Position numbers and translations under genes: made by a program. This document shows positions 25,863 to 42,218 of a stretch of 60,464 nucleotides of DNA, piece by piece. The stretch's first letter is position 1; each line of letters starts with the position of its first letter. Below the pieces are notes generated by a model, which was given only the letters and a program-made list of their open reading frames with translations, did no database searches and was not told the DNA's origin. This DNA comes from Syntrophaceae bacterium (GTDB lineage Bacteria; Desulfobacterota; Syntrophia; Syntrophales; Smithellaceae), in assembly GCA_009773315.1 (NCBI GenBank), contig WRPE01000015.1, forward strand, positions 1-60,464. Direction: 5' to 3'.

Positions 25863-26726
25863 CTATTTTTTTGTTTTAACCACCACGGCGCCCTCGGAGA
25901 ATTCCGCCGGCTGTTCGGCTTTCCCCTTCACCGCCGCCTTCACTTTAATGCTTCTGGTCTTGATGCCAATATCTTTCGTTTTGGTTTTTACCGCGAAGAC
26001 ACTGCCTTCTTCTTTCAGATTCAAATCGCCCAGTTCCGAGACGCTGGCATAGACGATAATGCTTTCATCACCGAAGGGCGGGTTCACTTCCAATTCAAAT
26101 TTATCATTTCCAGACGGGATTTCATAAATCACGCCGCCCTGAAAGTAATTGTCCTGGCGATAGGGATTGGGCAGCAACTGAAGATTATTTTTTGCCGTGT
26201 CGCGATAAATCACCCGGGCAAAGAAAGGTTTATTGCCCTTGAGATAAATTTTAATTTTCTCGCCATCGCGATAGGTTGCCTTATCCGTCCAGACTTTTAC
26301 GGCCAGAGGCAGTGACGGATCATCAAGGACGGCATCACTGGCTTTCTCATTGGCTTTCTTCATAGCCTTTTCATCCGGAATAACTTCGGCCTTCAGTTTG
26401 ATCTTGTAGCAGTCGCCCTGTGCCGGATCTTTATACCAGGCCTTTTCCAGTGTCTCGATCACCGAAACCGTGGCATTGGCATAAGCGGACACAAGATCCT
26501 TCTGAAGTTCAAAGTCTTTCACTTCAGTTGCGGACGACACATAGGTCTTGACCGATTCGACGGCGTTTCTCTTGGCGTCGGCCATCGCCGCGGTTTCGGT
26601 TTGCTTGCGCGATTTGTCATCCCCCATGCAGGCGGAGCCTTCCGCCATCTTAATCGTGGATTGCGCTGCGTAAAGCGGCGCGGTCATAAAGATACACAAA
26701 GCAATAAAAAACAAAATCTTGCGCAT
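25863..26726 (-). CDS. Secreted LPP20/DUF4384-type protein
   Basis: A 287-residue exported protein with signal peptide (RKILFFIALCIFMTAPLYAAQ). The first half, with ADAKRNAVESVKTYVSSATEV, resembles LPP20-like domains. The second half, with VWTDKATYRDGEKIKIYLKGNKPFFARVIYRD and NLQLLPNPY, is the DUF4384 beta domain. DUF4384 is often found beside or fused to caspase-like peptidases and WD40 proteins; two such proteins are encoded 7-13 kb upstream on this strand. A good ribosome-binding site (TGGAGG) precedes ATG. It is the last gene of the long leftward run. Confidence 0.8.
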   Translation of the reverse strand: MRKILFFIALCIFMTAPLYAAQSTIKMAEGSACMGDDKSRKQTETAAMADAKRNAVESVKTYVSSATEVKDFELQKDLVSAYANATVSVIETLEKAWYKDPAQGDCYKIKLKAEVIPDEKAMKKANEKASDAVLDDPSLPLAVKVWTDKATYRDGEKIKIYLKGNKPFFARVIYRDTAKNNLQLLPNPYRQDNYFQGGVIYEIPSGNDKFELEVNPPFGDESIIVYASVSELGDLNLKEEGSVFAVKTKTKDIGIKTRSIKVKAAVKGKAEQPAEFSEGAVVVKTKK

Positions 26727-26746: not shown

Positions 26747-26869
26747 CTACTTGGCAATCACCAGTGGAAAATCCATTCCCCGCGAATCCACCACGGGATG
26801 CTGAGCTTCCTGTCTATACTTTTTTATGATTTTCAGCAACTGCTCTTCTACATAGGTTATAACCTTCAC
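26747..26869 (-). CDS. 40-codon ORF overlapping the exporter stop (GTGA), function unknown
   Basis: GTG at 26869-26867 overlaps the TGA stop of the ABC exporter, the usual arrangement for translational coupling. The frame gives a 40-residue peptide starting MKVITYVEEQLLKIIKKY and ending FPLVIAK. It is highly charged with an amphipathic N-terminal helix and no cysteine, so it is not a second precursor of the five-Cys type. It could be a small accessory protein or a chance frame. It fills most of the gap between the exporter and the DUF4384 gene. Confidence 0.4.
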   Translation of the reverse strand: MKVITYVEEQLLKIIKKYRQEAQHPVVDSRGMDFPLVIAK

Positions 26870-28671
26870 CTGTAATATTTGGCCTGGATTTCAAACAGGT
26901 GGGCGTATAGTCCATTTCGCTCGACCAGTTCTTCATGCGTGCCTGCTTCCGCGATTCCTCCGTCCTCCAGCACATAGATCCAGTCGGCCATCCGGATGGT
27001 GGAAAAACGATGACTGATGAAGATGACCGTGCGGCCTCGGGCCAGTTCCCGCAGATTTTCAAAAACCGCCGCTTCGGCTTTGGCATCCATTGAACTGGTC
27101 GGTTCATCGAGAACGATGATTTGCGCATCGCGCAGGAAGGCCCGTGCCAGCGCCACCTTCTGCCATTGGCCGATGCTCAGTTCCGCCCCGTTGCCGAACC
27201 ATTTGCCCAACATGGTTTCATAACCCAGGGGAAGCCCCGCGATAACGTCATCAGCGCCGGAATACTTGGCCGCGGCAACGATCTTCTCATCATCGGGAGC
27301 GAGCTTTGTATTCCCCATCCAGATATTTTCGCGTACTGTCATCTGGTACTGGACGTAGTCCTGAAAAATGATGCCGATTTCGCGGCGTAATGCTGTCGTG
27401 TCAAAGCTGCGCAAGTCGATATCGTCCACGGTAATCTTCCCGGCTGTCGGGTCATAAAGCCGGCACAGCAGTTTCACCAGCGTTGTTTTTCCCGACCCGT
27501 TTTCCCCGACCAGAGCTACGACCTGCCCCGGACGAATGCTGATGCTGATATCCTTGAGGACCATCGCCTCTCCCGTCGGATATCGGAAATCGATATGGTC
27601 AAAAACAATCCCTTTCTGCATGGGCCTGGGAACCGGCTCGGGTTTGGCTGGTTCGATGATGGTCGGTTTCAAATCGAGAAAATCATAAAAATTGGAAAGA
27701 AATAGGTTGTCTTCATAGAGACTCGCCAAACCGTTCAGCATCTCCTTCAGATAGCCTTGCGCCCGCTGAAAAGCCTGATAGTACATCACCATGTCCCCCA
27801 GGGTCATCATCCCCTGCACCGTCCGGTAGGCGATAAAGGCCAGAGAACCGAATATGGCAATGGCCGCAAAAGCCTCAGCAACCAGCTCTGTCAGGGCGTA
27901 CCGGAAAGCGATGCCGATTTTTTCCCGCCGGAGCAATTGGCGCAGATCCCGAAAACGCTTGATAAACAGGGGGCCAAGGTCATACAGCCGGACTTCCTTG
28001 GCATAGTACTGACTGGTAATCAGCCAGTTAAAATAAGTCGCCGCGCGATCTGTTGCTGACCGGTCGGACTGCCATTGAAACATCCTGTCCGCATATTTTA
28101 TACGAAAAAAAAGTCCGGGAATCAGTGATGCGCACAATACCGCGGCAATTCCCCAGTGGACGGAAAATAATAACGCCGCAATCCCGACGAGGGTGACACC
28201 GCTCTGGACGACCTGGATAAGACCATTGAGAATACTGGTCGGACGGTGGGGGGCTTCCTGCTGCGCACGGTGCAGGGTGTCGTAGAAGCCGGCATTTTCA
28301 TAATATTCCATATCCAGGGCAACGGACTTGCCGTGCAGCACATTCTGAATATGATCGGTAATGATCTGGGCCTGGGCCTGCCCCACGACTTTCGCCGCCG
28401 AAGCCAGCAAAACAGCAGCCAGTGCCGACGCGCCCAAAAGGCCGATGAGCGTGAGGACATGACTCATGACGATGTCCTTGCCCGGCGACGTAATGCCCGC
28501 GGTTATCGCATCCACCGTCAGCTTCATAAGGTAAAGCTGCGCAAGCGGCAGGGCGGCCTGCAACACCAGGAGCGCCGTGCTCAGCGCAGCCCAGCCGGGA
28601 GCGGCCTTCCACAAAAGCGACAACGCCCGTCGCAGGTACAATTTCTTGGGCTTTTTCGGATTCAAGGACAT
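26866..28671 (-). CDS. ABC exporter (fused permease-ATPase) of the RiPP locus
   Basis: Half-transporter of 601 residues: six predicted membrane helices in the first ~320 residues and an ATPase domain with Walker A LVGENGSGKTTLVKLL, signature LSIGQWQKVALARAF (variant of LSGGQ), Walker B IIVLDEPTSSMD and the H-loop VIFISHRFSTIRMAD. It has no N-terminal C39 protease domain, so leader removal must be done by another protein, plausibly the S26-like protein encoded two genes upstream. It starts 5 bp after radical SAM gene B. Role inferred: export of the modified peptide. Confidence 0.88.
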   Translation of the reverse strand: MSLNPKKPKKLYLRRALSLLWKAAPGWAALSTALLVLQAALPLAQLYLMKLTVDAITAGITSPGKDIVMSHVLTLIGLLGASALAAVLLASAAKVVGQAQAQIITDHIQNVLHGKSVALDMEYYENAGFYDTLHRAQQEAPHRPTSILNGLIQVVQSGVTLVGIAALLFSVHWGIAAVLCASLIPGLFFRIKYADRMFQWQSDRSATDRAATYFNWLITSQYYAKEVRLYDLGPLFIKRFRDLRQLLRREKIGIAFRYALTELVAEAFAAIAIFGSLAFIAYRTVQGMMTLGDMVMYYQAFQRAQGYLKEMLNGLASLYEDNLFLSNFYDFLDLKPTIIEPAKPEPVPRPMQKGIVFDHIDFRYPTGEAMVLKDISISIRPGQVVALVGENGSGKTTLVKLLCRLYDPTAGKITVDDIDLRSFDTTALRREIGIIFQDYVQYQMTVRENIWMGNTKLAPDDEKIVAAAKYSGADDVIAGLPLGYETMLGKWFGNGAELSIGQWQKVALARAFLRDAQIIVLDEPTSSMDAKAEAAVFENLRELARGRTVIFISHRFSTIRMADWIYVLEDGGIAEAGTHEELVERNGLYAHLFEIQAKYYR

Positions 28672-28676
28672 TGGGG

Positions 28677-29789
28677 TTATTCAGTTTTTCGTAAGGTCGT
28701 TGCTCTTAATTTGGCCACGGCGCAAAAGTAAGGGGTGGCGCCATCCATTTCACCTGTTTCGAGATGGGCATGAGCGGGACACCACAGACAAAGGTTGACA
28801 AGCGGACACACGCGGCAAGTCTTGAGAAATTCCTGACGGGTCGAACGCATATCACGAACCTTCGGCACAAAATGATTCCAGGCATCGTCGAGCTTGCCCT
28901 GCCGCAGATCATAAATCGTTGGCGGCGCCCATAAGGATGAACACAACCGGAACATGCCGTCGTAACTGACATTGAAACTGCCGTTGCCCGCACCGCAATG
29001 GAACAGATGGTCGCAGCCGAAATGCGCAAATTCATCTTTGATGAGGGTATCGCAATTCTTCTGCATAGCCCGCATCCGCTCTTTGTCCGCCTGCTCCAGC
29101 GCAATGATCTGCTCCGGTGTCAGGCGTTCCGCAATAATGTCTTTATTACATTCCCGGTTGCCGTCAAATCGCAGATGCAGTTGCGGATCGAAACGATAGA
29201 AATCCTTCGTGTAGGCGCGGCAGAAATCGGCAATGGTATCCTGCTCGTGAAGATTGGATTGGATCGCCATCGCCTTCAGGCGGATGCGCACACCGCTCTC
29301 CATCAGAAGATTCATCCCGCGCATGAATTTGTCAAACGTACCGGGCCGGCGTGTGATGCGCTCGTAGGTTTCGCGCGTCACACCATACACTGTTATTTCA
29401 ATATCACGCGGCGGATGTTTCTTGAAGAGCGCGATATGATCTTCGTTGACTAATGTGGCATTGGTAAAAACGGAAACCAGCAGTCCCTTGCGCCGAAGCC
29501 CGGTGTAAATCTCGGCAAAATCAGGGCGCAACAACGGTTCGCCGCCGGTGATGAGACACCACATGGCGCCGAGATTGACCGCCTGCTGCGCGATGTCACC
29601 GATTTCGGCAAGGGATAGTTCGCGCGCCTGTGCGTCCCTGTCGCCTACCGGCAGGTTGATATAACAATGGCGGCAATTGCAGTTGCAGCGCGCAGTGATC
29701 TCCATATCAAACGAAAGCGGGACGCTCTTGGCTTTGAGCCTCTCCCAGAGCGGAAATTCCTTGATTTCAATAGAATGGGACTTGGACAT
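28677..29789 (-). CDS. Radical SAM/SPASM peptide-modifying enzyme B
   Basis: A 370-residue radical SAM protein. The first cluster motif is CNCNCRHC (Cys35, Cys39 and Cys42 as CX3CX2C), followed by ITGGEPLLRPDF. The C-terminal SPASM region holds CGAGNGSFNVSYDGMFRLC and CRVCPLVNLCLWC, with a last Cys in ATPYFC, for auxiliary iron-sulfur clusters. Enzymes of this layout next to PqqD and a short Cys-rich peptide install thioether, carbon-carbon or epimerised residues in RiPPs. It differs from enzyme A and may act second or on other residues. Gaps to neighbours are 21 bp (upstream) and 5 bp (downstream). Confidence 0.92.
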   Translation of the reverse strand: MSKSHSIEIKEFPLWERLKAKSVPLSFDMEITARCNCNCRHCYINLPVGDRDAQARELSLAEIGDIAQQAVNLGAMWCLITGGEPLLRPDFAEIYTGLRRKGLLVSVFTNATLVNEDHIALFKKHPPRDIEITVYGVTRETYERITRRPGTFDKFMRGMNLLMESGVRIRLKAMAIQSNLHEQDTIADFCRAYTKDFYRFDPQLHLRFDGNRECNKDIIAERLTPEQIIALEQADKERMRAMQKNCDTLIKDEFAHFGCDHLFHCGAGNGSFNVSYDGMFRLCSSLWAPPTIYDLRQGKLDDAWNHFVPKVRDMRSTRQEFLKTCRVCPLVNLCLWCPAHAHLETGEMDGATPYFCAVAKLRATTLRKTE

Positions 29790-29810
29790 AAAATCATTCC
29801 TTAAGTCATG

Positions 29811-30713
29811 TTATTGCAGAGATGCCGGGGAAGTTCGCAGGAGGCCCATGTCTTCTTCTTTTTCAGGATGATCCTTTCGCAGGATGGCTTCCGCCTTCCT
29901 TTGCAGCATGGCATCCAGTCCTGCGCCACGGTAGCGCGCGCTCACAAACGACTCGTCCATCAGCCACTGACCGGATGCTTCACGCGTCAGTGTCAGCCAG
30001 GCGGCAGGCGTCTGTGAACCGTTCAGGTACAAAAGCAGTGTCCAGCGCTGCACAGGGCGTCCCCGCCAATCCTTTTGCACGCTGAATGTTTCCGGCGACA
30101 GTTGGCGATAGACCGCGTCACCCAGGGCGGGCATCGGCAGGCGCACCCGGTATGAAATTTGCGGATGGGCAAAGTGCAGCCATATCTTCATCATCCAGCG
30201 GTAAAAGGCATTCGTCTGCACTTTCGGCAGCAGATCTGTCCAGACCAAAATTATCCGCAGTCGAAGTTCGATCAGCCTGAGGCGCAGGGCAAAGTAAAAA
30301 CGCAGCGGCCATGGAGCTGATGCCGGTTGAAGCGATGCCGGTTTGCCCCCGCGTTCAATGGCAACCACAACGCCGAGCAGGTTCTCGTCAAAGGTGGGAC
30401 CGTCGCTCTCGTCCGGTGTGCGGTCCTGACGGGTAACAATGTAGGCGCGTCCTTCCTCTGCTCCCCGGGCCACGACGCGGTGGCAAAACAGATGCGTGGG
30501 TCGCCGGCAGACGACAACATCACCCAGAGAAACATCGGCCGCAGCGCGCGACTGGATACGCAGGACATCGCCCGGACGAATGGTCGGATACATGCACGTA
30601 CCCTCGGCGCGAAAGGTTACACCATCCCGGTCGGCCAGGACCCGGCCGATATCAAGAGAAGCCCTGACAAGACTCTTTGACGTATGATTTGTTTTCAAGA
30701 CATCCTGAGACAT
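29811..30713 (-). CDS. S26 signal-peptidase-like protein with Cys nucleophile, fused to a GNAT-like domain
   Basis: A 300-residue two-part protein. The first part has the S24/S26 fold: AEGTCMYPTIRPGDVL, SLGDVVVCRR and FCHRVVARG. The catalytic Ser of the GxSMxPTI motif is Cys40 here, and His78 takes the place used by the SipW/archaeal type of signal peptidase. After a hydrophobic stretch (about 135-155), the C-terminal part ends in FVSARYRGAGLDAMLQRKAEAILRK, which resembles the acetyl-CoA-binding motif of GNAT acetyltransferases. It may cleave the leader peptide, modify the product, or both. ATG 30713 is preferred (CAGGA upstream) over a longer frame. It lies between pqqD and radical SAM gene B. 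Confidence 0.75.
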   Translation of the reverse strand: MSQDVLKTNHTSKSLVRASLDIGRVLADRDGVTFRAEGTCMYPTIRPGDVLRIQSRAAADVSLGDVVVCRRPTHLFCHRVVARGAEEGRAYIVTRQDRTPDESDGPTFDENLLGVVVAIERGGKPASLQPASAPWPLRFYFALRLRLIELRLRIILVWTDLLPKVQTNAFYRWMMKIWLHFAHPQISYRVRLPMPALGDAVYRQLSPETFSVQKDWRGRPVQRWTLLLYLNGSQTPAAWLTLTREASGQWLMDESFVSARYRGAGLDAMLQRKAEAILRKDHPEKEEDMGLLRTSPASLQ

Positions 30714-30771
30714 AAACCGGAATCCTGTAACGGCCTGGGTGTTCCGAGGGAAATTCCCCCGATTTGTTATT

Positions 30772-31095
30772 TTACAACTTTGCCACAAGAATACCGCGCC
30801 GTGTCAGCTCGCTTGCAAAACCCAGAACATCGGCTTCGAGTTCGCTTGCCGGACCATCAAATACTTCGGCGAGGGATACCGCTACTTCCTTCAACGTCTT
30901 CTTACCATCTAATTTTTGCCAAATGGCCTGCCCGGTCTCATTGAGCGTATAGAGTTCATCCTCATCATCACCGATACCGGCAATAAGGGGAATGAGAACA
31001 ACTTCGCCTTCGATGGTCCTCGCCACCACGTTTTCTGAACATGCACACACGGCATCCAGGTTGAGCTGGGTCGCCATAATCTCGCCCCTTTCCAT
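30772..31095 (-). CDS. PqqD-like RiPP recognition element
   Basis: A 107-residue protein of the PqqD fold: VVARTIEGEVVLIPLIAG, DELYTLNETGQAIWQKLDGKKTLKEVA and VLGFASELTRRGILV. Such stand-alone proteins bind the leader peptide and present it to radical SAM enzymes. Two starts are possible (31095 and 31077), each with a fair ribosome-binding site. It follows the precursor gene by 80 bp that contain a strong hairpin. Confidence 0.9.
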   Translation of the reverse strand: MERGEIMATQLNLDAVCACSENVVARTIEGEVVLIPLIAGIGDDEDELYTLNETGQAIWQKLDGKKTLKEVAVSLAEVFDGPASELEADVLGFASELTRRGILVAKL

Positions 31096-31127
31096 ATTTT
31101 TATTCTCCGCCGGTCAAAGTCCGCAGC

Positions 31128-31159
31128 TGCCGCATCCCCGCAGCTGCGGGTATGCGGCA
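31128..31159 (-). other. Strong hairpin between precursor and pqqD genes
   Basis: TGCCGCAT (31128-31135) pairs with ATGCGGCA (31152-31159), and within it CCCGCAG/CTGCGGG continue the stem after one mismatch; the centre is the perfect palindrome CCGCAGCTGCGG. It begins 16 bp after the precursor stop. No T-run follows on the transcribed strand. It probably shields the precursor mRNA or attenuates read-through, giving more precursor than enzyme. Confidence 0.65.
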
Positions 31160-31175
31160 TATTGCAGACCAACGG

Positions 31176-31361
31176 CTATGATCTGTAACAATTATAACAG
31201 GACGGCTGTGGTCCCGTTACGCAATTGTAAGACCCCCTTGATGGCCCCGATGATGGAGGATTGGTGCAGCTCTTACAGCCCATGAGTACAGTTTCTTCAG
31301 GTTTGCTCCTAACCAGAGCAATTAATTCCGGTTTCTGCCACTGTTTGTTATTTTTTTCCAT
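31176..31361 (-). CDS. Candidate RiPP precursor peptide (61 residues, five cysteines)
   Basis: The short product divides into a leader (EKNNKQWQKPELIALVRSK, continuing PEETVLMG) and a core rich in Cys, Gly, Pro, Ser, Asn and Tyr. Cysteines are at 29, 32, 47, 55 and 58, with the pairs CKSC and CYNC near both ends of the core and GP repeats between. A good ribosome-binding site (AGAGGAATAAA) precedes ATG 31361. It is bracketed by two radical SAM/SPASM genes and followed by pqqD, a peptidase-like gene and an exporter. These features make it the likely substrate of the locus. The final chemistry (thioethers or other links) cannot be read from sequence. Confidence 0.85.
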   Translation of the reverse strand: MEKNNKQWQKPELIALVRSKPEETVLMGCKSCTNPPSSGPSRGSYNCVTGPQPSCYNCYRS

Positions 31362-31416
31362 TTTATTCCTCTTTTATCCTGTTGCAAATTCAATAAACAC
31401 CTGTTGTTGGTTGACA

Positions 31417-32670
31417 TTAAAACGCTTGTCTTGTCGAACGTTGACCACTGATTCTTTCCCGCCAGTTCATCACCTCCCATCCATATTCGTTTTTGCCCAG
31501 CCAACCGATATAGCGCGCCTGCACATGCGCTGTCTCACACAAATACGCGACCGGTGTATCTATCGTTCCGTGTTCCGTCCACGATTTTGCCGGACATTGT
31601 TCACACAGGCCCTTCAGAAAGCATTTCGCACAACGCCGCAGGTATTCGGGATTTGTCGCACACAGGTCGCAGAGTCCGGAAAATCGGGATAGGGCGTCTT
31701 CTAAGCCGGCACATTCGGGATGCATCCCTGGCACGGAAACACTGGAGAGGGAATCTTCTTCCCGCATGGATTTTAAATCGGGGTTCAGGTTAACCGTCCA
31801 TTCCGGTGCACGAAGCCCCATGCATGGCTGGGCGCGCCCGTAGGCATCGATACACAGGCTGCATGCCACACCACAACTAAACAGCCTGTCGCCGGATGGC
31901 CCCATGAACCGCGAGGCAAATGCCTCCATGCTTTGTTTGTATTCTGCCACGTCGCGGGTCAGGATTGCCAGTGAATCCTGCGGCGTCAAACGAAGCGATT
32001 GAATGCAGACATTTTTCTCTTCGTCGTCGCGGCGATTCCGCAAATCCAGGGAAATCACATAACTCGGCGGTCTGGTCATCCCGGGAATCGTCCCGGCCCA
32101 CGCTTCAAATTCGACCATTTCGTGCTTGTTTTGAGGCAAGATAACCCACTTTACGACAAACGGGACATTGCGTTCCAGCAACAGATTCCTGCCGCGCTGA
32201 AACTGGGCGAAAGAACCAGGACAACGGGTTACGGCTTCGTAAGATTCCTTGTGCATTCCGTACGCGGTAATCTCTATTTCCACAAGCGGTGGCATCTGCC
32301 GGAAAAGATCGGCCAGGCCGGGGGTAATCAGACAGGCATTGGTAAACAACAACACCTTCAGGCCCAGTCGACGCGCGTAAATGTACAACTCCTGAAAATC
32401 CGGCCGCAGGAGCGGCTCGCCGCCGGTGAATCGCACTTGCAGGCATCCCAGATCGACAGCTTGTCGCAACAGATCCCGGATCTGCTCCGTCGTCATTTCG
32501 CCTGCGCGCGCCACCGCATCGTTTGCCGGACGGTTGATGCAGCAATGAATACAGTCGTTATTGCAACGCTCGGTCAATTCCACGTCGAGTTGTTCAAGGC
32601 GTGGCCTGGCGCCTTTCCATAGGAGCCCCTGGTCCCGCCCTCGCTGCACAACGTAAGTCTTCTGTGTCAT
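31417..32670 (-). CDS. Radical SAM/SPASM peptide-modifying enzyme A
   Basis: A 417-residue radical SAM protein with ELTERCNNDCIHCC (Cys36, Cys40, Cys43), VRFTGGEPLLRPDF and a long cysteine-rich C-terminus: SCGVACSLCIDAYGRAQPC, CDLCATNPEYLRRC, CAKCFLKGLCEQC and a final AYLC. This is a SPASM layout with extra cysteines, able to hold two auxiliary clusters. It shares the core fold with enzyme B but is longer. ATG 32670 (AGGTG 7 nt upstream) is preferred over a frame starting at 32751. It is the first gene of the RiPP group, 55 bp before the precursor. Confidence 0.92.
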   Translation of the reverse strand: MTQKTYVVQRGRDQGLLWKGARPRLEQLDVELTERCNNDCIHCCINRPANDAVARAGEMTTEQIRDLLRQAVDLGCLQVRFTGGEPLLRPDFQELYIYARRLGLKVLLFTNACLITPGLADLFRQMPPLVEIEITAYGMHKESYEAVTRCPGSFAQFQRGRNLLLERNVPFVVKWVILPQNKHEMVEFEAWAGTIPGMTRPPSYVISLDLRNRRDDEEKNVCIQSLRLTPQDSLAILTRDVAEYKQSMEAFASRFMGPSGDRLFSCGVACSLCIDAYGRAQPCMGLRAPEWTVNLNPDLKSMREEDSLSSVSVPGMHPECAGLEDALSRFSGLCDLCATNPEYLRRCAKCFLKGLCEQCPAKSWTEHGTIDTPVAYLCETAHVQARYIGWLGKNEYGWEVMNWRERISGQRSTRQAF

Positions 32671-32764
32671 TTCACACCTGCTGTGATATTTGTCCGCACC
32701 TTTGGTTCCATGCTGTCTCGATTCTGTCGCAACGATTTCTCTTATTCTCACGGATCGAGAATAT

Positions 32765-33133
32765 TCACCATTTCTGCTGCATAATTTCTTTCCGCTTTTG
32801 CAGATACTCTTCTTCTGTAATCAACCGATCTTTTTTCAGCCTCTCCAGGCTGCGCAGTTTTTCTTCCACAGTAGGGCCGCTCTCCGGCAGATCCAGATCA
32901 ATCTCCGCCATCGCAGAGGCGGAAGCCTTTCCTGACTTCAGATTGTACACGTTATAGGCAATAATGAGAATGACAATCAGCATCCAGAACACCACAAATA
33001 TCTGTCCGATGCCGCTGCCCTCCTCCAGAAGAAGACCGAAAAATACAATGCCGAAAATAAGCATAACTCCCGCAGCAATTATCCCGATGACCGACGCCAT
33101 CTTCCCAGGTCGCACATATGCTTTTGGACTCAT
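32765..33133 (-). CDS. Two-span membrane protein with C-terminal SHOCT domain
   Basis: A 122-residue protein with two membrane helices (ASVIGIIAAGVMLIFGIVFFGLLL and IFVVFWMLIVILIIAYNVYNL) and a SHOCT tail (VEEKLRSLERLKKDRLITEEEYLQKRKEIMQQ). SHOCT motifs are short oligomerisation or tethering helices found at protein ends; function is unknown. ATG 33133 has GAGGGGAAT upstream. It lies 30 bp after the PDZ-thioredoxin-caspase gene and 94 bp before radical SAM gene A. An ATTCTC/GAGAAT inverted repeat (32744-32762) just after its stop could be an operator. Confidence 0.75.
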   Translation of the reverse strand: MSPKAYVRPGKMASVIGIIAAGVMLIFGIVFFGLLLEEGSGIGQIFVVFWMLIVILIIAYNVYNLKSGKASASAMAEIDLDLPESGPTVEEKLRSLERLKKDRLITEEEYLQKRKEIMQQKW

Positions 33134-33163
33134 TTTATTCCCCTCTTCTTGAAAACAATACAC

Positions 33164-36100
33164 CTAGCGCACGATGAACAACGAACTGTCCTTCCCAAAA
33201 TTAATGATCACTGGTATTTGCGGATGGCCGAGTTTATTGGAAATTTCTGCGGTCATCTCCCTGGAGTATATTCCCAGACTTTTAACCGTTACCATGCCGC
33301 TCTTGTTTTTGTCCACCGCCTCGCCGTTTTTCAATCCCTCCAAAAGAGAATGAGTATATAAACCGTTGCCCTGGTAGCCGTCCAGAGCGGTCTCGACGGA
33401 GCCTGCCGAGGCATAGATGTGCAGCCCCATCTTTTTAGCCAGTACGGACATGCGAGCATCATACAGCCCGCTGACAATGGTGTCAACACCACCGGCATGG
33501 CACGTATCAAAAATAAAAAGTTGCGACAGGGCTTTGATCTTTTTGGACATCTCGACGATCTCGTTGGAGCTGATCAGACTTGCGCTTCTGTCCAGAGAGC
33601 CTGCGAAACTGCCGGTGACGATGTAGTACTGGCTTTGCAAAAGCAGACCGTGGGAGGCGTTGAAGAAAATGAAGCTGTCGCCATGTTTCACCCGTACGGC
33701 CAGTTTATCGATGGCGGCTAGAATGTTGGGTTTGCCGGCCTCTCCATTGACCAGGGTCGTCAAATGGATGTTGGATGGATGATAGATGGTTTTAGCCTTG
33801 TCGGACAGTTGTGCGATGAAATCCCGGGCATCCTTGGCGGCGTATTTCAAATTGATGGAAGCGTCGCGATACCGGTCAATGCCGACCGCCAGAATATACA
33901 GCCGTGGTTCATCGGGTGCTCTGGTAGAGATAAAACGGGCTGTGCCTATGACACTCTGCACCGTGTTAGGGGCGTTGAAGGCGGTCAGACTAATCTCGTT
34001 TTCACCGGCAATCGTTTCCAGCTCCACACACTCGTTAACCAATTCACCCTTGGGACGCACGACGACCGCGCCGGGACTCTGTTTCTCCTTGATGGTCAGG
34101 GAACGCATATCCTGATAGACAGCCCTGCTGTTCAACTGAGCCAGTTTCATGGTTGTCGTTGCACTCTGCGTCGCAACGTCGCGATAGAATCCATCGGACT
34201 TGATCAATTTGCCGTTCTGGAACAAGCGCACTTCCCCAATACCGCCACCGGTGCTTTGCACCTGATAGCAGACCTTCACTTTTGGGTCGCTGGTCTGATT
34301 GGGAACGGTAGAAAACTTGACTGCCGGAGGCGGATTCTTGATCGCTTCTTCCACCGTCAGGGTGACCAGGCCCGTAATATCATCGCCTTTGAGTTTTGCC
34401 GAAACAATGTCGGGCCGGTAAAAGACATCATAAAACTGGTCAATCCCGTAAACCCTGTTGCCCCGGCGGATGTTGAGGTATTCATGCCCCCGGGCCGAGG
34501 AGTTGTAGTATCCTTCCTTTGTGATCACAATCCATTCTCCATTGCCAAAGCCAACAAACTGCCCAACCTCCCTGCCGGCAGCCGTATCCCACAGCCGGAC
34601 GGTCCCATCAGAGCTGCCGCTGGCCAGCCACAAGACAGCATCGCTTGCCGCCCCCGCATTGATTGGCGCCCGATGACCGGCAAAACGAAGTCCTTTTCCG
34701 AAGGACCGGTTACTCAGCAGACGAAATGAGTTATCGCCATTATCCGCAATCGCCAGACGATCATCAGGTCTGCCCACAACCACGCGACCGTCAGATCCAC
34801 GCTGTTTGTTTCCTTGCAGGTCGATGAGTCCTTCATCTTTCCCCGGAATCGAGACGGCCTTGCTGTCGGACGTAAACTGCAACACTGCCGCTGCACCTTT
34901 CATCGGGACAACCGCTTCACTAACCCAGTTTTTTGTGGAGAAAAGTTCAAGTTTGTTCAAGGTGGAAAGTGCAAAGTGAGCGCCATCAGGCGAAAAGACA
35001 AACATCACCGACTGCGGAGGGGTTGTATGATCAACCGGAATGGATTTGATAAGCTGGTTTGCCGGGTTCCAGATGTCGACACTGAACTGACCGCTTTGGT
35101 CTGCTCCGAAACTGGCAACCACAGTGCCCAGCGGTGATATCGCCAATTTTTCAACAAACTGTTTCGTCTGGATGGATTTCTGCTGCTGTTGCACGATATC
35201 CACAATATGGACACCCGTTCGTTTCTGATCCGCCATAGCCGCATAGGCCCCGTTGGGCGACAAGCCGGAAACTGCTGCGCGATAGGTTCGCGCCAGAACT
35301 CCTTGCTGGTAATTCCAGACCACAACCGCCCCGGAGGCATCTCTGGCAGCCATCAGCGGACTGTCCTTGATAAAAGCAACTTGCAATATCCAGTTGCCCT
35401 TACCGATTGCGGCGAAGACTTCAATCTCGTTATTGTCGCTGCGGGTCTTGGCCAGCAGTTCATCGATGTGCTCTTTGCGCGATGGCCGCGAAATCTTGTC
35501 CACTTCTCGGCCGCCGTTGAACAAAATGACCGTCGGCAAAATTCCTGAAACGCCGTAGCGATTGACGATATCGGCGCTTTTATCGATATCAATCCCCACG
35601 ATTTTAACGTCGGGATACTGCTGGCTGGCCTGTTGCATAATCGGCAGATACATTTTGCAGGGTGCACACCAGTTCGCGTAGAAATAGGCCAGCACCGGCT
35701 GGTCGGACTTCAACACCTCCTGTTCAAAGCGCGCACTTTCTACGGTCGTTATAGAGCCTAATCCGACCGTAGCTCGGGTTGGCTGACCCGGACGAACTGT
35801 ACCCGGTGAAACGGCAGCTCTCTTCAGGGTGTAGTTGATCACAATGCGCTCTTTACCGCGCGCAATCTGCACCTGCACCTGATCACCCGGCTGATAAAAT
35901 CTTGTGACCTCTTGCAGATCAGCAGGCGCCTTGATACTCCTGTCATCAACCTTCAGAATAACATCACCGGGCCGCAAGTCGCCTGCCGACGACGCCGAAA
36001 CGACGTAGGCGCCCTCGGGCATTTCCAGACCGATGAATTGCGCATATTCAACCGGTACCGCCTTGATCATCACACCAAATGACGCCCGCTCGGCCGCCCA

Positions 36101-36172
36101 AACAGATGCTGATGACAGAAGCAGAAGAAGAATGATGATACTATGGATAATACCTAACCGTTTGCTGTCCAT
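33164..36172 (-). CDS. Exported PDZ-thioredoxin-WD40-caspase-like peptidase
   Basis: A 1002-residue exported protein with an unusual domain chain. After a signal peptide (about 1-27) comes a PDZ domain (GDVILKVDDRSIKAPADLQEV), a thioredoxin domain with WCAPC (about residue 168), and a degraded WD40-like propeller (about 250-560). A linker follows (GEWIVITKEGYYNSS, YRPDIV), then an Ig-like part and a C-terminal caspase-like peptidase C14 domain. The His-Cys dyad is in FFNASHG (His841) and DTCHAGG (Cys891). ATG 36172 has AAGGA upstream. It starts 29 bp after a related WD40-caspase gene and shares its linker. A redox-linked periplasmic protease is inferred; targets are unknown. Confidence 0.85.
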   Translation of the reverse strand: MDSKRLGIIHSIIILLLLLSSASVWAAERASFGVMIKAVPVEYAQFIGLEMPEGAYVVSASSAGDLRPGDVILKVDDRSIKAPADLQEVTRFYQPGDQVQVQIARGKERIVINYTLKRAAVSPGTVRPGQPTRATVGLGSITTVESARFEQEVLKSDQPVLAYFYANWCAPCKMYLPIMQQASQQYPDVKIVGIDIDKSADIVNRYGVSGILPTVILFNGGREVDKISRPSRKEHIDELLAKTRSDNNEIEVFAAIGKGNWILQVAFIKDSPLMAARDASGAVVVWNYQQGVLARTYRAAVSGLSPNGAYAAMADQKRTGVHIVDIVQQQQKSIQTKQFVEKLAISPLGTVVASFGADQSGQFSVDIWNPANQLIKSIPVDHTTPPQSVMFVFSPDGAHFALSTLNKLELFSTKNWVSEAVVPMKGAAAVLQFTSDSKAVSIPGKDEGLIDLQGNKQRGSDGRVVVGRPDDRLAIADNGDNSFRLLSNRSFGKGLRFAGHRAPINAGAASDAVLWLASGSSDGTVRLWDTAAGREVGQFVGFGNGEWIVITKEGYYNSSARGHEYLNIRRGNRVYGIDQFYDVFYRPDIVSAKLKGDDITGLVTLTVEEAIKNPPPAVKFSTVPNQTSDPKVKVCYQVQSTGGGIGEVRLFQNGKLIKSDGFYRDVATQSATTTMKLAQLNSRAVYQDMRSLTIKEKQSPGAVVVRPKGELVNECVELETIAGENEISLTAFNAPNTVQSVIGTARFISTRAPDEPRLYILAVGIDRYRDASINLKYAAKDARDFIAQLSDKAKTIYHPSNIHLTTLVNGEAGKPNILAAIDKLAVRVKHGDSFIFFNASHGLLLQSQYYIVTGSFAGSLDRSASLISSNEIVEMSKKIKALSQLFIFDTCHAGGVDTIVSGLYDARMSVLAKKMGLHIYASAGSVETALDGYQGNGLYTHSLLEGLKNGEAVDKNKSGMVTVKSLGIYSREMTAEISNKLGHPQIPVIINFGKDSSLFIVR

Positions 36173-36201
36173 TTTTATGTCCTTACCTGAACTGAAAATA
36201 A

Positions 36202-39200
36202 TCATTTCACCCGCCCGATCGGAAACGCCTGACCGCTGATGGAAATCGTGGGGTACTGCGCCCGCTTGAATATCTTCTCCGCCAGCAGCGGCACCTCATT
36301 GTCCGCGTAATCCGCGAGATCGGTGGTCTTAATGTACCCGGTCTTCCCCTTATCCGCCTTGCCTTTCAAGCCTTCGGATAAAACGTAGGTGAACAGGCCG
36401 TGACCCTGATATCCCTCCAGCGCCTCCTGAAGCGACGTCGATGCCGAAAGAATGGTCGAACCCACCGCCCGGCTCAAAATCTTCAGTGCCGTGTCCTCGC
36501 TCATGCCGCGGGTGAGCATTGCCACCTGAATGGCCTCTCCCAGAGCGCCCGCGTTGCAGGTATCGATGATGATCAGTTTCTTGGTTGCCGGAATATTGGC
36601 AATGGCTTCTTTGAGCATGTTTTGTGAAATGGCGTCGGTCCGGAGCTTCTCCGTTCTCAATGATCCCACATTGGAGGTAATGAGAAAATATTCCCCTTCA
36701 TCCACTGTCCCGTGGCTCGCGATGTAAAAAACAAACAAATCGTCCGGACGCAAAGTCTGAAATGATTTAATCTCCCGGATGATCGCCTCGCTGGTGGTCT
36801 CTTCCGGCTTTGTCAGTGTCTTGATCGTCACTTTGTCAAACAACCCTTCCGACGCCGTTTTAAGCGTTCCTGCAAAAAGCTGCGCGTCGGCGGCAGGATA
36901 TTGAAGTTTAAGTTTCGGATTTTTAAATTCGTTAATCCCGATGATCAACGCTGTAAGCGACGGCTTTCCCGCCTGCGCATAGGTCGCCACGACTTCCAGG
37001 ATTGTTTCATTGCTCTGCATGCTGTTGTCGCCGTTGAAGGCCACGGCCTTGATAATATTCTTTCCGTTCAGCAGACTCAGATCATAGGTTTTCAAGACCG
37101 CTTTATTCGTCTTTTCCCTGATCGTCACGGCCCGGCTGTCCATCACCACGGCGGTTCCATTCAGATAAAGCCGCACATCTCCGATGCCGCCGCCCTGATC
37201 TTCAAGCCTAAGCCGCACGGTCACTTTATCCTTACTGACTAAAGCAGGCGTATCGACGATCCTCACGCTCGGCGGCTGTTTCACGTCGGCCAGATTCCGG
37301 AAATCTTTGAGCGATCCGCCCGAAAGCGCTATTTTCACCAGATCGGGACGGAAGAAGGTTTCCCGATAGTTCTCGATGCCGTAGACGTTGCTGCCTACGC
37401 GAACGTTCATGTGTTTGTCGCCGCTAGAAGATGCGTTGTAATAGCCTTCCGGGGTTATGACAATCCACTCGCCGTCTGAAAAGGAGCTCATCCGGGCAAT
37501 TTCCCTACCGGTGCTGCTGTCCCACAAATGGGCCACCGGTCCAAGACTGTCTACCGTAATCACGCGATTGGCTTTGGAAGAAATTGCCGCAGTCACAAAG
37601 GTCGATCCGCCGGGCATGATGGAAGTTTTATCACCCGCAAATGAGCGGATTTCTTTTCCGGTAGCGATATCCCAGAGCCAGCTCTTCTGGTCATCCGAGC
37701 TTCTAATCAAAAGCCACCTGCTGTCGCCGGAAAATCCCACATAGGTTATGCGCTCGTTTGCTTGCCGCAGGAATGTCTTGATTTCTTTCCGGGTTGCAAG
37801 CTCCCAGAGCTTGGCGGCGCCGACGAGGCTTTCCGTTGCGATGAACTTGCCGTCGGGAGAGAATGCCACCGAGGTAACGGTGTGCGTATGCCCCCCCAAA
37901 CGCGCTATCTCCTTGCCGGCCGTCAGGCTCCAAACGATGACTGCGCTGTCCGTACCACCGGAAGCCGCCAATTTTCCGTCCGGGCTGACGGCCACGGAAG
38001 TCACATCTGCGGTATGACCGATAAAGGACATGGTCTCCTTGCCGGAAGCGAGATCCCAAAGCCGCACAATTTTATCCTCACCACCTGACAGGATCCAGTT
38101 GCTGTCCTTGGAAAAAGCCAATGAATTGACCGCTTTAAGGCCCGTGCTGATTCGATCCACCTTAGCCAGTGTAATATCCCATACGATGAAGCCGCCGCCG
38201 ATGTTCACCGCAAACTTCTTACCGTCGAGGGCAAAGGCAACAAAAGCGAGTCGATGACCCTGACCTTCGTATCTTCCAATCTCCTGGTTTTTTTCAAGGT
38301 CCCAGAGGCTCAATCGTCCAAATCCGCGGAACAATATTTGCCTTCCGTCGGGAGAAAAAGCCGCATCGCTGGCGCCAACTTGTTTGCTGCTAAACTCTTT
38401 GATTCCATATCCGGTTTGACTGTCTGCAACCCTGAAGATTGTATCACCGGCTATAGAAGAGTTTTTCAAAAGAATCCGTTTCCCGTCAGGCGAAAGTTCC
38501 ACCAACCTAAAACCCTTGGGCAGTCGGAAGAAACCGAGTTCCCTCCCTGACGAAAAGTCCCAAAGCGTTGCAGCGGTGGCGGTGGTTGACAGGGCATAGC
38601 CGCCGTTTTTGGAAACCTGAATGGCGTAAATAGCCTCCACGGCTTTGGTAGTGGAGCGCCTCTGGAAACTACGCACTTCTTTTCCGGTAGCCAAATCCCA
38701 AAGCTCAAGTGTCTGGTCTCGTCTGGGAGATAAAACATACCGGTCGTCCGGAGAAAATGCCGCCGAATAAAATTCATCTCTGTCGAAAGTCTTTTCAATC
38801 TTTCCTTCCAGGACGTTCCAGAGGACGAGATGTATTTTGGTTGGAGAGAATTTCTTGCGAGACAATGCATATTTCCCACTGGAAGAGAAAATCACCGAGC
38901 TATTCTCCGGATAGGTAAGACTCAGTGTGCTCACCGTTCTTCCTGTCACGGTTTCCGCAATGATGATACCATCCTCACCTCTGGCCCAGAAATATTTTCC
39001 ATCCGGAGTAAATCCAGTTTTGCCATCTACAATAAAAGTGGCGTCTATTTTCTGGAGTTGCCTACCACTTTGCACATCCCAAAGCCTGCATGTTTTGTCC
39101 AACCCCCAGGAAGCAATCAATCTTTTGTCCGGAGAAAAAGCCAAAGAGGATACACTGTAAATATGTCCACCAAGGGTTCTGATTTCTCTTCTGGAAAGGA

Positions 39201-39426
39201 CATCCCAAAGCTTAATACTACCGCTCATTGCACCGGAAGCAATAACTTTCCCATCCGCAGACATAGCCGCAGCATTAACCCATTCCGTATGCCCCAACTG
39301 CACAGAAACTTCCGGTGCCTGCGGACTTCCGGCGGGGGCAAGCTTGTCGTCGGCAGAAGCTATGTTTATGGCCAGCATGAAGACCATTCCAAAACAGACC
39401 GACACAATGCCCGTATGGCCTTGCAT
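36202..39426 (-). CDS. Exported WD40-repeat caspase-like peptidase
   Basis: Up to 1074 residues: a hydrophobic signal (VCFGMVFMLAINIASA), then roughly a dozen WD40 repeats (e.g. SVAFSPDGKFIATES, KLWELATRKEI) forming one or two propellers. Next come the conserved linker GEWIVITPEGYYNASSSG with FFRPDLV, an Ig-like segment, and a caspase-like domain with FYIASHG (His905) and IIDTCNAGA (Cys957). The start is unclear: ATG 39426 follows a stop codon directly and no start has a good ribosome-binding site. The first 152 bp overlap the upstream membrane protein frame, so coupling is likely. Paralogous to the next gene downstream. Confidence 0.85.
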   Translation of the reverse strand: MQGHTGIVSVCFGMVFMLAINIASADDKLAPAGSPQAPEVSVQLGHTEWVNAAAMSADGKVIASGAMSGSIKLWDVLSRREIRTLGGHIYSVSSLAFSPDKRLIASWGLDKTCRLWDVQSGRQLQKIDATFIVDGKTGFTPDGKYFWARGEDGIIIAETVTGRTVSTLSLTYPENSSVIFSSSGKYALSRKKFSPTKIHLVLWNVLEGKIEKTFDRDEFYSAAFSPDDRYVLSPRRDQTLELWDLATGKEVRSFQRRSTTKAVEAIYAIQVSKNGGYALSTTATAATLWDFSSGRELGFFRLPKGFRLVELSPDGKRILLKNSSIAGDTIFRVADSQTGYGIKEFSSKQVGASDAAFSPDGRQILFRGFGRLSLWDLEKNQEIGRYEGQGHRLAFVAFALDGKKFAVNIGGGFIVWDITLAKVDRISTGLKAVNSLAFSKDSNWILSGGEDKIVRLWDLASGKETMSFIGHTADVTSVAVSPDGKLAASGGTDSAVIVWSLTAGKEIARLGGHTHTVTSVAFSPDGKFIATESLVGAAKLWELATRKEIKTFLRQANERITYVGFSGDSRWLLIRSSDDQKSWLWDIATGKEIRSFAGDKTSIMPGGSTFVTAAISSKANRVITVDSLGPVAHLWDSSTGREIARMSSFSDGEWIVITPEGYYNASSSGDKHMNVRVGSNVYGIENYRETFFRPDLVKIALSGGSLKDFRNLADVKQPPSVRIVDTPALVSKDKVTVRLRLEDQGGGIGDVRLYLNGTAVVMDSRAVTIREKTNKAVLKTYDLSLLNGKNIIKAVAFNGDNSMQSNETILEVVATYAQAGKPSLTALIIGINEFKNPKLKLQYPAADAQLFAGTLKTASEGLFDKVTIKTLTKPEETTSEAIIREIKSFQTLRPDDLFVFYIASHGTVDEGEYFLITSNVGSLRTEKLRTDAISQNMLKEAIANIPATKKLIIIDTCNAGALGEAIQVAMLTRGMSEDTALKILSRAVGSTILSASTSLQEALEGYQGHGLFTYVLSEGLKGKADKGKTGYIKTTDLADYADNEVPLLAEKIFKRAQYPTISISGQAFPIGRVK

Positions 39427-39917: not shown

Positions 39918-42218
39918 TTATCTTCGAATTCCAGATGTGGAACCGGCCTCTTCTAAAATCATGGGGACATCTTTCGATTTTTCAAAAACCCGCATATGAT
40001 ATTGGCCGCCCGCCTGGAAAGGCCCGCTCAAACGCAACATCACGTCATGAAGCGAATAGGCAATAACCAGTTTGCCGTCGCGACGTTCGGGTCCGCTGAA
40101 TCCGATAGAATAAAGCCATCGCGCGTCATGCCCCAGAAAAACACAGGCCACCACATATTTTTCAAAATCCATCCGGGGCGCGGGCTTTCCAAAGGCGCGC
40201 AGCCATAGCTCGGACCATTCCTTTGGCGTCTCCACCACTTTAATGAATGCCTCTTTTTGCTTGGAAACATTGCCCTTCCATTCCATCCCGAGATAGTCCC
40301 GGACCGCACCGGCTTTTTCCAGAAGGCTCACAATAGCCGGATTGGCGCCTTCTACCGCATAAGTCCAGGCCGACTTTCCCTCTTTATCTTTCAGTGATGC
40401 GGCGGCTCTCTTTTCGGCCAATATTTTTACCATGTCCGCGTTGCCTCTTTTGACCGCCAGAATCAGCGCCGTCTCCCCCTTTTTGTTGGCCGCATTGAGA
40501 TCTGCGCCCTGGTCGATGAAATACTTGACGCAAGAAAGATTTGATTCTTTAAAAGACTTAACCGCCTTCATCAAAGCCGTCTCTCCTTCGTCATCCTTTA
40601 TGTTAACATCCGCGCCTCTTTCGACCAGAAATTTCACCAGGACAATATCGCCGTCCGCGGCCAGCATCAGAGCAGTTCCCGAGGCAAAGCCGCGCATATT
40701 CACATCCATATCCTTGGTCAGCAAAAGTTTGACGATCTCCTGATCACCGGCAATAACGGCCGAAAAAAGAGCTTCCCGTCTGTCAAAATTCCCGCTGTTT
40801 TTTATCAATGTTCTGACGATCCGAACATTTTTTGCAGCGATGGCCTTGCTTAAGGCCGTATCCCCGTATTTCGATTTTTGATTGATATCCGCTCCGGCCT
40901 TCAAAAGCGCTTCCACTAAATCGGCATTACCCTTTTCACAGGCAATCATCAAGGCCGTCGTTTGATCTTTATCCACGGCATTGACATCCGCTTTATGGGC
41001 AATCAGTAATTTGGCTATATCGGAACTGCCGTCATGGATGGCCATCATCAGGGCTGATTTCTCATCATCATATTTACCGTTTACCTTTGCGCCGTGCTTC
41101 AGCAATAGGCCGACCACTTCCCGTTTTTTACCCGTTACCGCATAGATCAGGGCATCGCCCCGGCCCAGGTTCTTGACATTCCCATCTGCTTTTTTCCCTA
41201 AAAGCTCATGGACGATGGCCACATACCCTCTGGTGGCGGCAAAGATAAGCGCCGTGTTGTTCTGGCCGTTCTTGGCATTCACGTCGGCGCCGAAAGAAAG
41301 CAATATCCGGACGATTTCCAGTTTATTGCCGTCCGCTGCATACATTAAGGGCGTGCTGCCGGTCGGCGCCCGGAGATTCACGTCAATGCCTTCGGCAATC
41401 AGTGCCTTGACTTTATCGGAACGGCCTTCCTTAATGGCAACAAATAGAGGATGCACGGCAGGATCAATGAGTTTTGATGGCGCTTTTGCGCCGTCAACCG
41501 GTTTTTCCAGCAATTGGGCAATATATTCCAGCCCATCTTTTTTCGCCAGGGACAAGGCCGTCTCACCCTCCTTATTTTTCAGGTCGAGCCTTGCGCCGCG
41601 GGCCAGCAAGTCCTGCACCAGGGCGGCATCTCCCTGCATCACCGCATACATCAACGGTGTCCGTCCCGTTTTCATCCACGACTCGTCTTGAACATTCACA
41701 TCCGCGCCATTTTCCAAAAGGATGCGAATGGTCTTTGCTTTATCAGTGGCAGAGCCGGAGGTTATTCGTCCCCAGCCGGTGGCGGCAAGAAGCGGCGTAA
41801 GCCCTTTCCCCCCGGCGTTCACATCAGCCCCCCCCGTAATCAGGTATTTTACAACATCGGCGTTGCCCTGGCTTGCCGCTTCCAGCAAAGGGGTTCTGTC
41901 ACCGGTTTCTTTGCCGGCATTAACATGGGCGCCATGCTCGACCAATAGCTTGACGATTTCCAAATTGCCGCGCGAGGCGGCAACCGATAACGGCGTATCG
42001 CCGGTTCTGCCTTTTTGATTGACCTCATATTTACTGGAGGCTGAGGGGGGGCCGCTAAGAATAGATTTTACCTTTTCCAAGTCGTTCTTTTTAATAGCCT
42101 CTAAAAGAGGGACGTCGGGCGGAGGCATGCGGCTGTCGGCGATACTCTTCGCCGGCAGGAATGCTAAAATCAGTAAAAAAAGAAGAGCACCAAAAAGGAA
42201 AAAGATGATCTTGCGCAT
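39918..42218 (-). CDS. Exported ankyrin-repeat protein with C-terminal PrcB-like domain
   Basis: A 766-residue protein with signal peptide (RKIIFFLFGALLFLLILAFL) and about 18 consecutive ankyrin repeats (pattern GxTALMxAxxxGNxxIVKLLLxxGADVN), covering residues ~38-640. The last ~120 residues (WSELWLRAFGKPAPRMDFEKYVVACVFLG) resemble the PrcB C-terminal domain of protease-complex subunits. A scaffold or protease-partner role in the periplasm is inferred, fitting the two caspase-like proteins encoded downstream. It opens the long leftward gene run. Confidence 0.85.
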   Translation of the reverse strand: MRKIIFFLFGALLFLLILAFLPAKSIADSRMPPPDVPLLEAIKKNDLEKVKSILSGPPSASSKYEVNQKGRTGDTPLSVAASRGNLEIVKLLVEHGAHVNAGKETGDRTPLLEAASQGNADVVKYLITGGADVNAGGKGLTPLLAATGWGRITSGSATDKAKTIRILLENGADVNVQDESWMKTGRTPLMYAVMQGDAALVQDLLARGARLDLKNKEGETALSLAKKDGLEYIAQLLEKPVDGAKAPSKLIDPAVHPLFVAIKEGRSDKVKALIAEGIDVNLRAPTGSTPLMYAADGNKLEIVRILLSFGADVNAKNGQNNTALIFAATRGYVAIVHELLGKKADGNVKNLGRGDALIYAVTGKKREVVGLLLKHGAKVNGKYDDEKSALMMAIHDGSSDIAKLLIAHKADVNAVDKDQTTALMIACEKGNADLVEALLKAGADINQKSKYGDTALSKAIAAKNVRIVRTLIKNSGNFDRREALFSAVIAGDQEIVKLLLTKDMDVNMRGFASGTALMLAADGDIVLVKFLVERGADVNIKDDEGETALMKAVKSFKESNLSCVKYFIDQGADLNAANKKGETALILAVKRGNADMVKILAEKRAAASLKDKEGKSAWTYAVEGANPAIVSLLEKAGAVRDYLGMEWKGNVSKQKEAFIKVVETPKEWSELWLRAFGKPAPRMDFEKYVVACVFLGHDARWLYSIGFSGPERRDGKLVIAYSLHDVMLRLSGPFQAGGQYHMRVFEKSKDVPMILEEAGSTSGIRR

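Follow-up and report, generated by a model that had tools for sequence, protein, structure and literature searches.

The window analysed here, a stretch of 60,464 nt (positions 1 to 60,464 of contig WRPE01000015.1) from the Syntrophaceae bacterium assembly GCA_009773315.1, carries on its minus strand a cassette of six genes, which is quite probably a locus for a ribosomally synthesized and post-translationally modified peptide (RiPP) and comprises a precursor, a RiPP recognition element (RRE), two radical S-adenosylmethionine (SAM) enzymes, an S26-GNAT fusion protein and an exporter. The source genome contains 2.98 Mb in 86 contigs, the window being contig 50, and the G+C content of the cassette is 54.3% versus 51.2% for the window. 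The genes are, from right to left and all on the minus strand, radical SAM A (31417-32670, 417 aa, radical SAM/SPASM, Pfam PF04055 Radical_SAM at 9.7e-21), the precursor peptide (31176-31361, 61 aa), a PqqD-like RRE (30772-31095, 107 aa, PF05402 at 8.5e-15), the S26-GNAT fusion (29811-30713, with a weak Pfam Peptidase_S24 match at 0.0014, 18.7 of 23.3 bits), radical SAM B (28677-29789, 370 aa, radical SAM/SPASM, PF04055 at 1.7e-22) and an MsbA-like ABC exporter (26866-28671, 601 aa, PF00664 ABC_membrane and PF00005 ABC_tran). The original prediction, made from the sequence alone, had proposed seven leftward frames, namely these six and a 40-codon open reading frame (ORF) at 26747-26869 on the same strand, and the coordinates and order of all seven were confirmed. 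No protein of the genome other than the PqqD-like one matches PF05402 at E <= 0.001. The exporter scores 296.6 of 602 bits against NCBIfam TIGR02203 and, as had been predicted, has no Pfam match to a C39 peptidase.

The precursor consists of a leader, WQKPELIALVRSKPEETVLMG, which contains the motif W8-x-x-P11-x-L13 and runs to G28, and a putative core from C29-K30 to S61, and the five cysteines previously noticed are indeed at positions 29, 32, 47, 55 and 58 of the 61 residues. The identification of the gene is supported by family alignments, by the statistics of 103 precursors and by an excess of synonymous differences. Related precursors were collected with the profile A2, built on nine sequences, and later with the profile A5, built on 71. 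The statistics started from 109 annotated ORFs, from which two copies in locus L067 were dropped first and then another five, of which two were truncated, two were duplicates and one was mis-anchored; with the window sequence added, this gave 103 non-redundant precursors. Conservation of the leader and of the cysteine pattern among relatives, by which the original prediction was to be judged, was looked for in this set and found. The motif W-x-x-P-x-[LIVM] is present in 100/103 precursors, with the tryptophan located 21 residues ahead of the junction cysteine in 95 of these 100; position -3 is hydrophobic in 101/103, glutamate is found at -6 in 96%, and lysine directly follows the junction cysteine in 98/103. 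The putative core contains four cysteines in 73 precursors, three in 21, five in six, six in two and seven in one. Of the 103 peptides, 102 end in Ser or Thr (the background being 20.6%), and the last cysteine is followed by exactly six residues in 81. This C-terminal Ser/Thr probably serves for recognition or is itself modified. In the window, Cys55 occupies the usual position of the last cysteine and Cys58 is additional. The cores are highly variable between loci, and loci with several precursors are common. None of the 71 precursors scored above the cut-off of a Pfam or NCBIfam model, the window peptide itself giving no match, which agrees with the new-looking core described beforehand.

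Two congeners (G007 and G015) harbor the same gene set, their proteins sharing 85-98% identity with those of the window, and the precursor is present in three of the 20 genomes of the genus sample. Over the 61 codons the G007 and G015 precursors differ by nine synonymous and no non-synonymous changes, while the window precursor differs from that of G007 by four synonymous and two non-synonymous changes and from that of G015 by seven and two, respectively. When the 79 related loci described below were block-shuffled in three versions, no precursor matches were obtained at the same threshold, and this, together with the synonymous excess among the congeners, argues that the precursor ORF is more than a chance reading frame. 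Directly 3' of the precursor gene there is an RNA hairpin (31100-31178, minus strand) with folding z-scores of -5.5 in the window, -6.8 in G007, -8.0 in G015, -3.2 in L032 and -2.0 in L040, and with no excess in L031 (z +0.8). It possibly stabilises or attenuates the transcript.

A scan of genome contigs with a radical SAM A profile (A4) resulted in 146 confirmed places, the best 80 of which were kept, giving 79 distinct loci that include those of G007, G015 and G069. With cut-off contigs counted, these loci contain the precursor in 67 cases, PqqD in 70, radical SAM B in 65, the S26 protein in 63, a third radical SAM protein in 49 and an MsbA-like ABC protein in 19. In the subset of 39 loci in which radical SAM A is flanked by 3.5 kb or more on either side, the corresponding numbers are 33 for the precursor, 38 for PqqD, 38 for radical SAM B, 35 for the S26 protein and 27 for the third radical SAM protein. 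The 79 loci span 15 labelled phyla, methanogens included. In an order sample of 155 genomes (a class sample had the same size), a radical SAM A orthologue (E < 1e-100) was detected in seven, all with the precursor, which was found in just two of the 148 others, namely G042, on a short contig with radical SAM B, PqqD and S26 genes, and G103 (E 4e-4). The proposal of a RiPP locus is thus supported by the 7/7 genomes and 33/39 well-flanked loci, and the arrangement is the one expected of such a locus, that is, a short precursor with a conserved leader and a variable core beside an RRE and modifying enzymes. One of the loci (L107) belongs to the named strain Desulfofustis glycolicus DSM 9705; nearly all other records are metagenome bins, for which misbinning is possible.

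A quick radical SAM A tree was built from 79 rows, i.e. 78 loci and the window. It contains 34 phylum label changes for 15 groups (minimum 14, shuffled mean 50.5); the phyla are intermixed, which, misbinning aside, suggests transfer of the locus between them. The window groups with L030, L031, L032 and L040 with a support of 100 in the SH-like approximate likelihood ratio test (SH-aLRT), and L030, a contig of a Smithellaceae metagenome-assembled genome, is the closest relative of the locus that bears a name. All five members of this subclade have five-cysteine cores starting with C-[KN]-x-C-T-x-P-P-[ST]-S-G-P-S and a Cys-type S26 protein, and none of them has the third radical SAM protein, the contigs of L032 and L040 being just 7 kb long. 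The gene content and order of the cassette are conserved in the congeners and in L031.

Several observations of distribution weigh against this reading of the locus. At the threshold used, the exporter was detected in only 14 of the 39 well-flanked loci. Loci that keep the partners and lack the peptide had been named beforehand as the finding that would speak against a RiPP locus, and they do occur in part: five of the 39 (L042, L049, L080, L081 and L099) retain the partners with no precursor detected, set against the 33 in which it is present. A motif search of the 12 loci without a precursor profile match gave no family-like candidate by eye, and L061 has only radical SAM A and the third radical SAM protein, with no precursor, PqqD, S26 or radical SAM B. 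In G049 the precursor and radical SAM A are located on separate contigs. The genome G127 (L144) harbors a precursor-like ORF (A2 match at 5.4e-5), which looks degenerate and has neither a radical SAM nor an S26 gene beside it in 17 kb of sequence. The precursor ORFs of L014 and L017 are partnerless as well, but say little because they lie at contig edges.

Radical SAM A possesses the C36-C40-C43 motif and SPASM cysteines at positions 266, 283, 347, 350, 356, 359 and 378, all ten of which are kept in 79/79 aligned rows, and radical SAM B possesses C35-C39-C42 and SPASM cysteines at 265, 283, 325, 328, 334, 337 and 356, the seven latter being present in 64/64 rows. No curated radical SAM family reached its cut-off for these proteins among the NCBIfam matches listed, and by sequence they are related to proteins of solved structure such as cytosylglucuronate decarboxylase, PqqE and SkfB. 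In sactipeptides and ranthipeptides, whose products contain thioethers from Cys to the alpha-carbon or another carbon, SPASM radical SAM enzymes act on Cys-rich precursors, and the cassette has in common with them a radical SAM enzyme with the cysteines of SPASM auxiliary clusters. The window differs from them in that its PqqD is a separate protein, two enzymes and an S26 peptidase are encoded, the leader is unrelated and the C-terminal Ser/Thr is conserved; the cassette is not assigned here to either class. The two SPASM enzymes would most likely form thioether links from core cysteines to neighbouring residues, a reading drawn solely from the enzyme family and the cysteine content.

The third radical SAM protein, present in 49 of the 79 related loci, L016 and L100 among them, has a length of about 590-770 aa and a C-terminal part resembling HprK and ScmC, with ScmC matches at 5.9e-8 in L016 and 1.1e-5 in L107, matches to HprK-related kinase, and a P-loop motif in 47/50. 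The kinase PadeK acts on a lasso precursor, whose C-terminal Ser it phosphorylates, as given in the accessible part of PMC9266682. By analogy, the radical SAM-kinase of the relatives could phosphorylate the C-terminal Ser/Thr; the precedent is a lead for the role of the third protein in relatives and not in the window. In the window's own genome, a search with the third radical SAM protein matched only radical SAM A, radical SAM B and other radical SAM stretches through its N-terminal half, NTP_transf_5 (PF14907) had no match, and the one HprK-like match, at 39 of 200 bits, is located outside the cassette; the first two of these results also count against the main reading of the locus. The kinase fusion alone was not supported as the cause of the C-terminal Ser/Thr spacing: the six-residue tail is found in 28/35 without the gene, a figure that includes some cut-off contigs, vs 54/69 with it. 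Two accessory families were observed in related loci, one of about 400 aa in 23 loci that looks NTP_transf_5-like (the L016 protein matches PF14907 at 1.1e-32) and one of about 270 aa in 12 loci, named methyltransferase-like by eye.

The S26-GNAT protein was modelled with AlphaFold2 (mean predicted local distance difference test score 81, predicted template modelling score 0.52), and the model contains an S26-type domain at residues of about 29-125 with C40, H78 and D97, followed by a C-terminally shortened GNAT-like domain at about 184-299. Residues 29-125 adopt the LexA/signal-peptidase fold, with VIA-align Z scores of 11.4 to SipA and 10.7 to the signal peptidase of E. coli, and SEC11A/SEC11C were matched at 8.5e-5 to 2.4e-4 in a profile search against solved structures. 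The GNAT-like fold is less distinct: its Z score of 8.4 to an aminoglycoside acetyltransferase is within the grey zone of the tool and the profile search gave a weak N-acetyltransferase match at 0.015, while the relative L018 matches Pfam Acetyltransf_1 at 1.1e-13. The S26 rows were picked by a motif permitting only Ser or Cys at the nucleophile position, with three near-duplicate loci excluded. Of the resulting 66 rows, window included, 11 carry Cys and 55 carry Ser there, and all 66 retain the residues equivalent to His78 and Asp97. The 11 Cys-type rows, in all of which His and Asp are present, form a single clade (SH-aLRT 99), and the predicted Cys-type S26 protein is therefore borne out. 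L043 (7927-10580, Omnitrophota) contains four precursor ORFs and two PqqD-S26 pairs, of which one is Ser-type and the other Cys-type.

It could be argued that the S26-GNAT protein has no part in leader cleavage and acts as a scaffold without proteolytic activity or as an accessory acyltransferase, with the leader removed by a housekeeping protease or not removed. The best structural match, SipA of Streptococcus pyogenes, is a signal-peptidase homologue that is not known to have the usual catalytic residues. S26 homologues can thus be non-proteolytic, and this counts against a peptidase role, as does the S24/S26 Pfam score under the cut-off; the R-x-x-G-x-G motif is retained in the GNAT part as well. 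Against the cut itself, position -1 is Ala, Gly, Ser or Thr in just 63 of the 103 precursors, which is weak for a signal-peptidase cut exactly at the junction cysteine. However, the conservation of Cys, His and Asp in 11/11 Cys-type rows would be needless for a dead scaffold, and the GNAT-like domain of the window's lineage is cut short at its C-terminus compared to the full-length proteins of L015 and L018. The closest precedent is the leader peptidase LppS of the linear polyphosphorylated peptides (LPP) of Bacillota, an S26-type enzyme that, in the accessible part of PMC13381572 (2026), cuts the leader only with the RRE LppB and needs Ser, His and Asp, as the substitutions S29A, H68A or D93A abolished cutting. 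A scaffold or accessory role of the S26-GNAT protein is therefore considered unlikely. The GNAT domain alone was not supported as the cause of the lysine after the junction cysteine, which is kept where the S26 protein is only about 165-180 aa long.

It was also proposed that the Cys-type S26 protein replaces the C39 protease missing from the exporter. The replacement is plausible because LppS is a proven S26-type leader peptidase (PMC13381572, accessible part), but the cysteine as such is not what replaces C39, since Ser is the usual form in the S26 family here. For the Cys-type branch, it is an open call, with the chances evenly split, that the leader peptidase is an S26-family member with a Cys nucleophile and a Cys-His-Asp triad within a widespread class defined by WxxPxL leaders, an RRE and SPASM enzymes.

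Taken in order, the pathway would begin with PqqD binding the leader through W8-x-x-P11-x-L13 and presenting the precursor, as suggested by the motif and by the precedent of lasso, PQQ and LPP systems, in which this leader motif serves for RRE binding, in LPP as [Y/W]xxPx[LVIFA] (PMC13381572, accessible part). Radical SAM A and radical SAM B would then modify the Cys-rich core, each at its own sites. In the third step the S26 protein and PqqD would remove the leader near the V-L-x-x-C-K junction, with Cys40-His78-Asp97 in place of Ser-His-Asp; the dependence of LppS on its RRE is the ground for assuming that PqqD assists. Finally, the MsbA-like ABC protein would export the product, because its gene is linked to the cassette and MsbA-like transporters are found in LPP clusters.

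The product may instead be a small cofactor or a metal-binding peptide, comparable to PQQ, mycofactocin or peptidic metallophores, and not an exported antimicrobial or signal. The low-score curated radical SAM matches do include PqqE and the mycofactocin maturase, metal binding is conceivable for Cys-rich cores, and the leader motif is common to PQQ precursors (PMC13381572, accessible part). Such a product is nevertheless rather unlikely given the strong variation of the cores between loci, the frequency of multiple precursors per locus and the linkage of the exporter in the window, the congeners and L031.

Comparison with annotated systems concerned mainly LPP, lasso peptides and SynChlorMet. 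As far as the accessible part of PMC13381572 describes them, LPP clusters resemble the window in having a discrete RRE, a [Y/W]xxPxL-type leader, an MsbA-like exporter and an S26 (SpI-like) peptidase with a His/Asp pair, the nucleophile being Ser in LppS and Cys in the window, and paeninodin-type lasso peptides resemble it in the WxxP leader motif and the RRE. The RRE and S26/SpI-like peptidase of LPP are thus both present among the predicted proteins of the cassette, with a Cys nucleophile, while no cassette protein matches the HprK-like kinase or the NTP (nucleoside triphosphate) transferase of LPP; an HprK-like domain and an NTP-transferase-like protein do appear as LPP-like traits in some relatives of the window. 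The LPP core is phosphorylated and regarded as linear, and the leader consensus, YxxPxVLxHQxIxFETxxS, differs from the window leader in the Y, HQ and FET positions (PMC13381572, accessible part). The main text of the same paper does not mention radical SAM, rSAM or SPASM. In paeninodin-type lasso systems the C-terminal Ser is the residue phosphorylated by PadeK and a nucleotidyltransferase is encoded in a related cluster (PMC9266682, accessible part). Unlike in lasso clusters, there are two SPASM radical SAM enzymes in the window cassette, and no cassette protein matches a macrolactam cyclase (Asn synthase-like) or a B2 peptidase.

The cassette could still be regarded as a divergent member of one of these systems, whether SynChlorMet or an LPP/lasso-type phosphorylated peptide, with the radical SAM genes as add-ons. 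The SynChlorMet cassette (NCBIfam TIGR04248-TIGR04252) contains two radical SAM/SPASM proteins, a PqqD relative and ScmC, a relative of which is fused to the third radical SAM protein in loci other than the window. Radical SAM B matches ScmE and radical SAM A matches ScmF at low scores, and some of the 71 precursors weakly match lasso_PadeA (14, best 0.0099), rhodolasso (six, best 0.0049) or ScmA (one, 0.22). These scores are, however, far below the curated cut-offs (ScmE 87.3 of 400 bits, ScmF 68.5 of 400, ScmD 31.3 of 100), and SynChlorMet membership was rejected, none of the proteins scanned having attained a SynChlorMet cut-off. Among 395 genomes of the phylum, the window's own included, ScmA gave weak matches in 13 and none over the cut-off, a result that says little, as two of 14 control genomes matched too. 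With the phosphorylation and cyclization enzymes missing from the cassette and the LPP consensus not followed by the window leader, membership in an existing system is quite improbable.

The combination of radical SAM, S26 and RRE proteins was not found described in the open-licence literature searched, prior notice elsewhere being possible. The searches found nothing for SynChlorMet with radical SAM or for the leader letter strings, and for radical SAM with S26 and PqqD only work on ortho-tyrosine peptides; a 2023 review of RiPP leader proteases leaves S26, S24 and signal peptidase unmentioned.

The cassette was probably acquired horizontally. The flanking caspase-type and DUF4384 genes are also found in congeners without it, and in G008 the site is empty, with the flank matches 61 bp apart vs about 6.3 kb in the window (26853-33185); the corresponding interval is occupied by a further caspase-type reading frame in G004 and spans about 1 kb in G012. 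The 40-codon ORF had been counted in the cassette, which did not hold: it was rejected as a RiPP gene and is placed outside, because it is homologous to the in-frame tail of the G004 caspase-type frame (79% over 39 aa; 91% DNA identity over 109 bp at the end of that frame) and represents the remnant of a caspase-type gene at the junction. The ORF at 32765-33133, presumably a SHOCT protein by its appearance although no library match bears that name, was likewise rejected as a core gene, since about 2 kb separate its homologue from radical SAM A in G007. Further to the right, two adjacent genes (33164-36178 and 36205-39426, both on the minus strand) encode caspase-domain/WD40-propeller proteins, the first of which also contains PDZ and thioredoxin domains, and a minus-strand gene at 39921-42218 codes for a 766-aa protein consisting mostly of ankyrin repeats; the DUF4384 gene (25863-26726) is located on the opposite flank.

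Whether the loci together make up a widespread, unnamed RiPP class of about 15 bacterial and archaeal phyla, uniting the leader handling of lasso peptides and LPP (WxxPxL, RRE, S26) with two or three SPASM radical SAM enzymes, is a question on which we lean neither way. If so, it would be a RiPP family missed by the current Pfam and NCBIfam models and seen for the most part in metagenome bins from anaerobes not in culture, and its occurrence in the named strain D. glycolicus makes it testable. Radical SAM peptide chemistry would then be tied to the leader-processing module of lasso peptides and LPP, the Cys-type branch would be a natural case of Ser replaced by Cys in an enzyme of the signal-peptidase type, and the Ser/Thr that ends almost every precursor, mostly at the same spacing from the last cysteine, would predict recognition by an enzyme.

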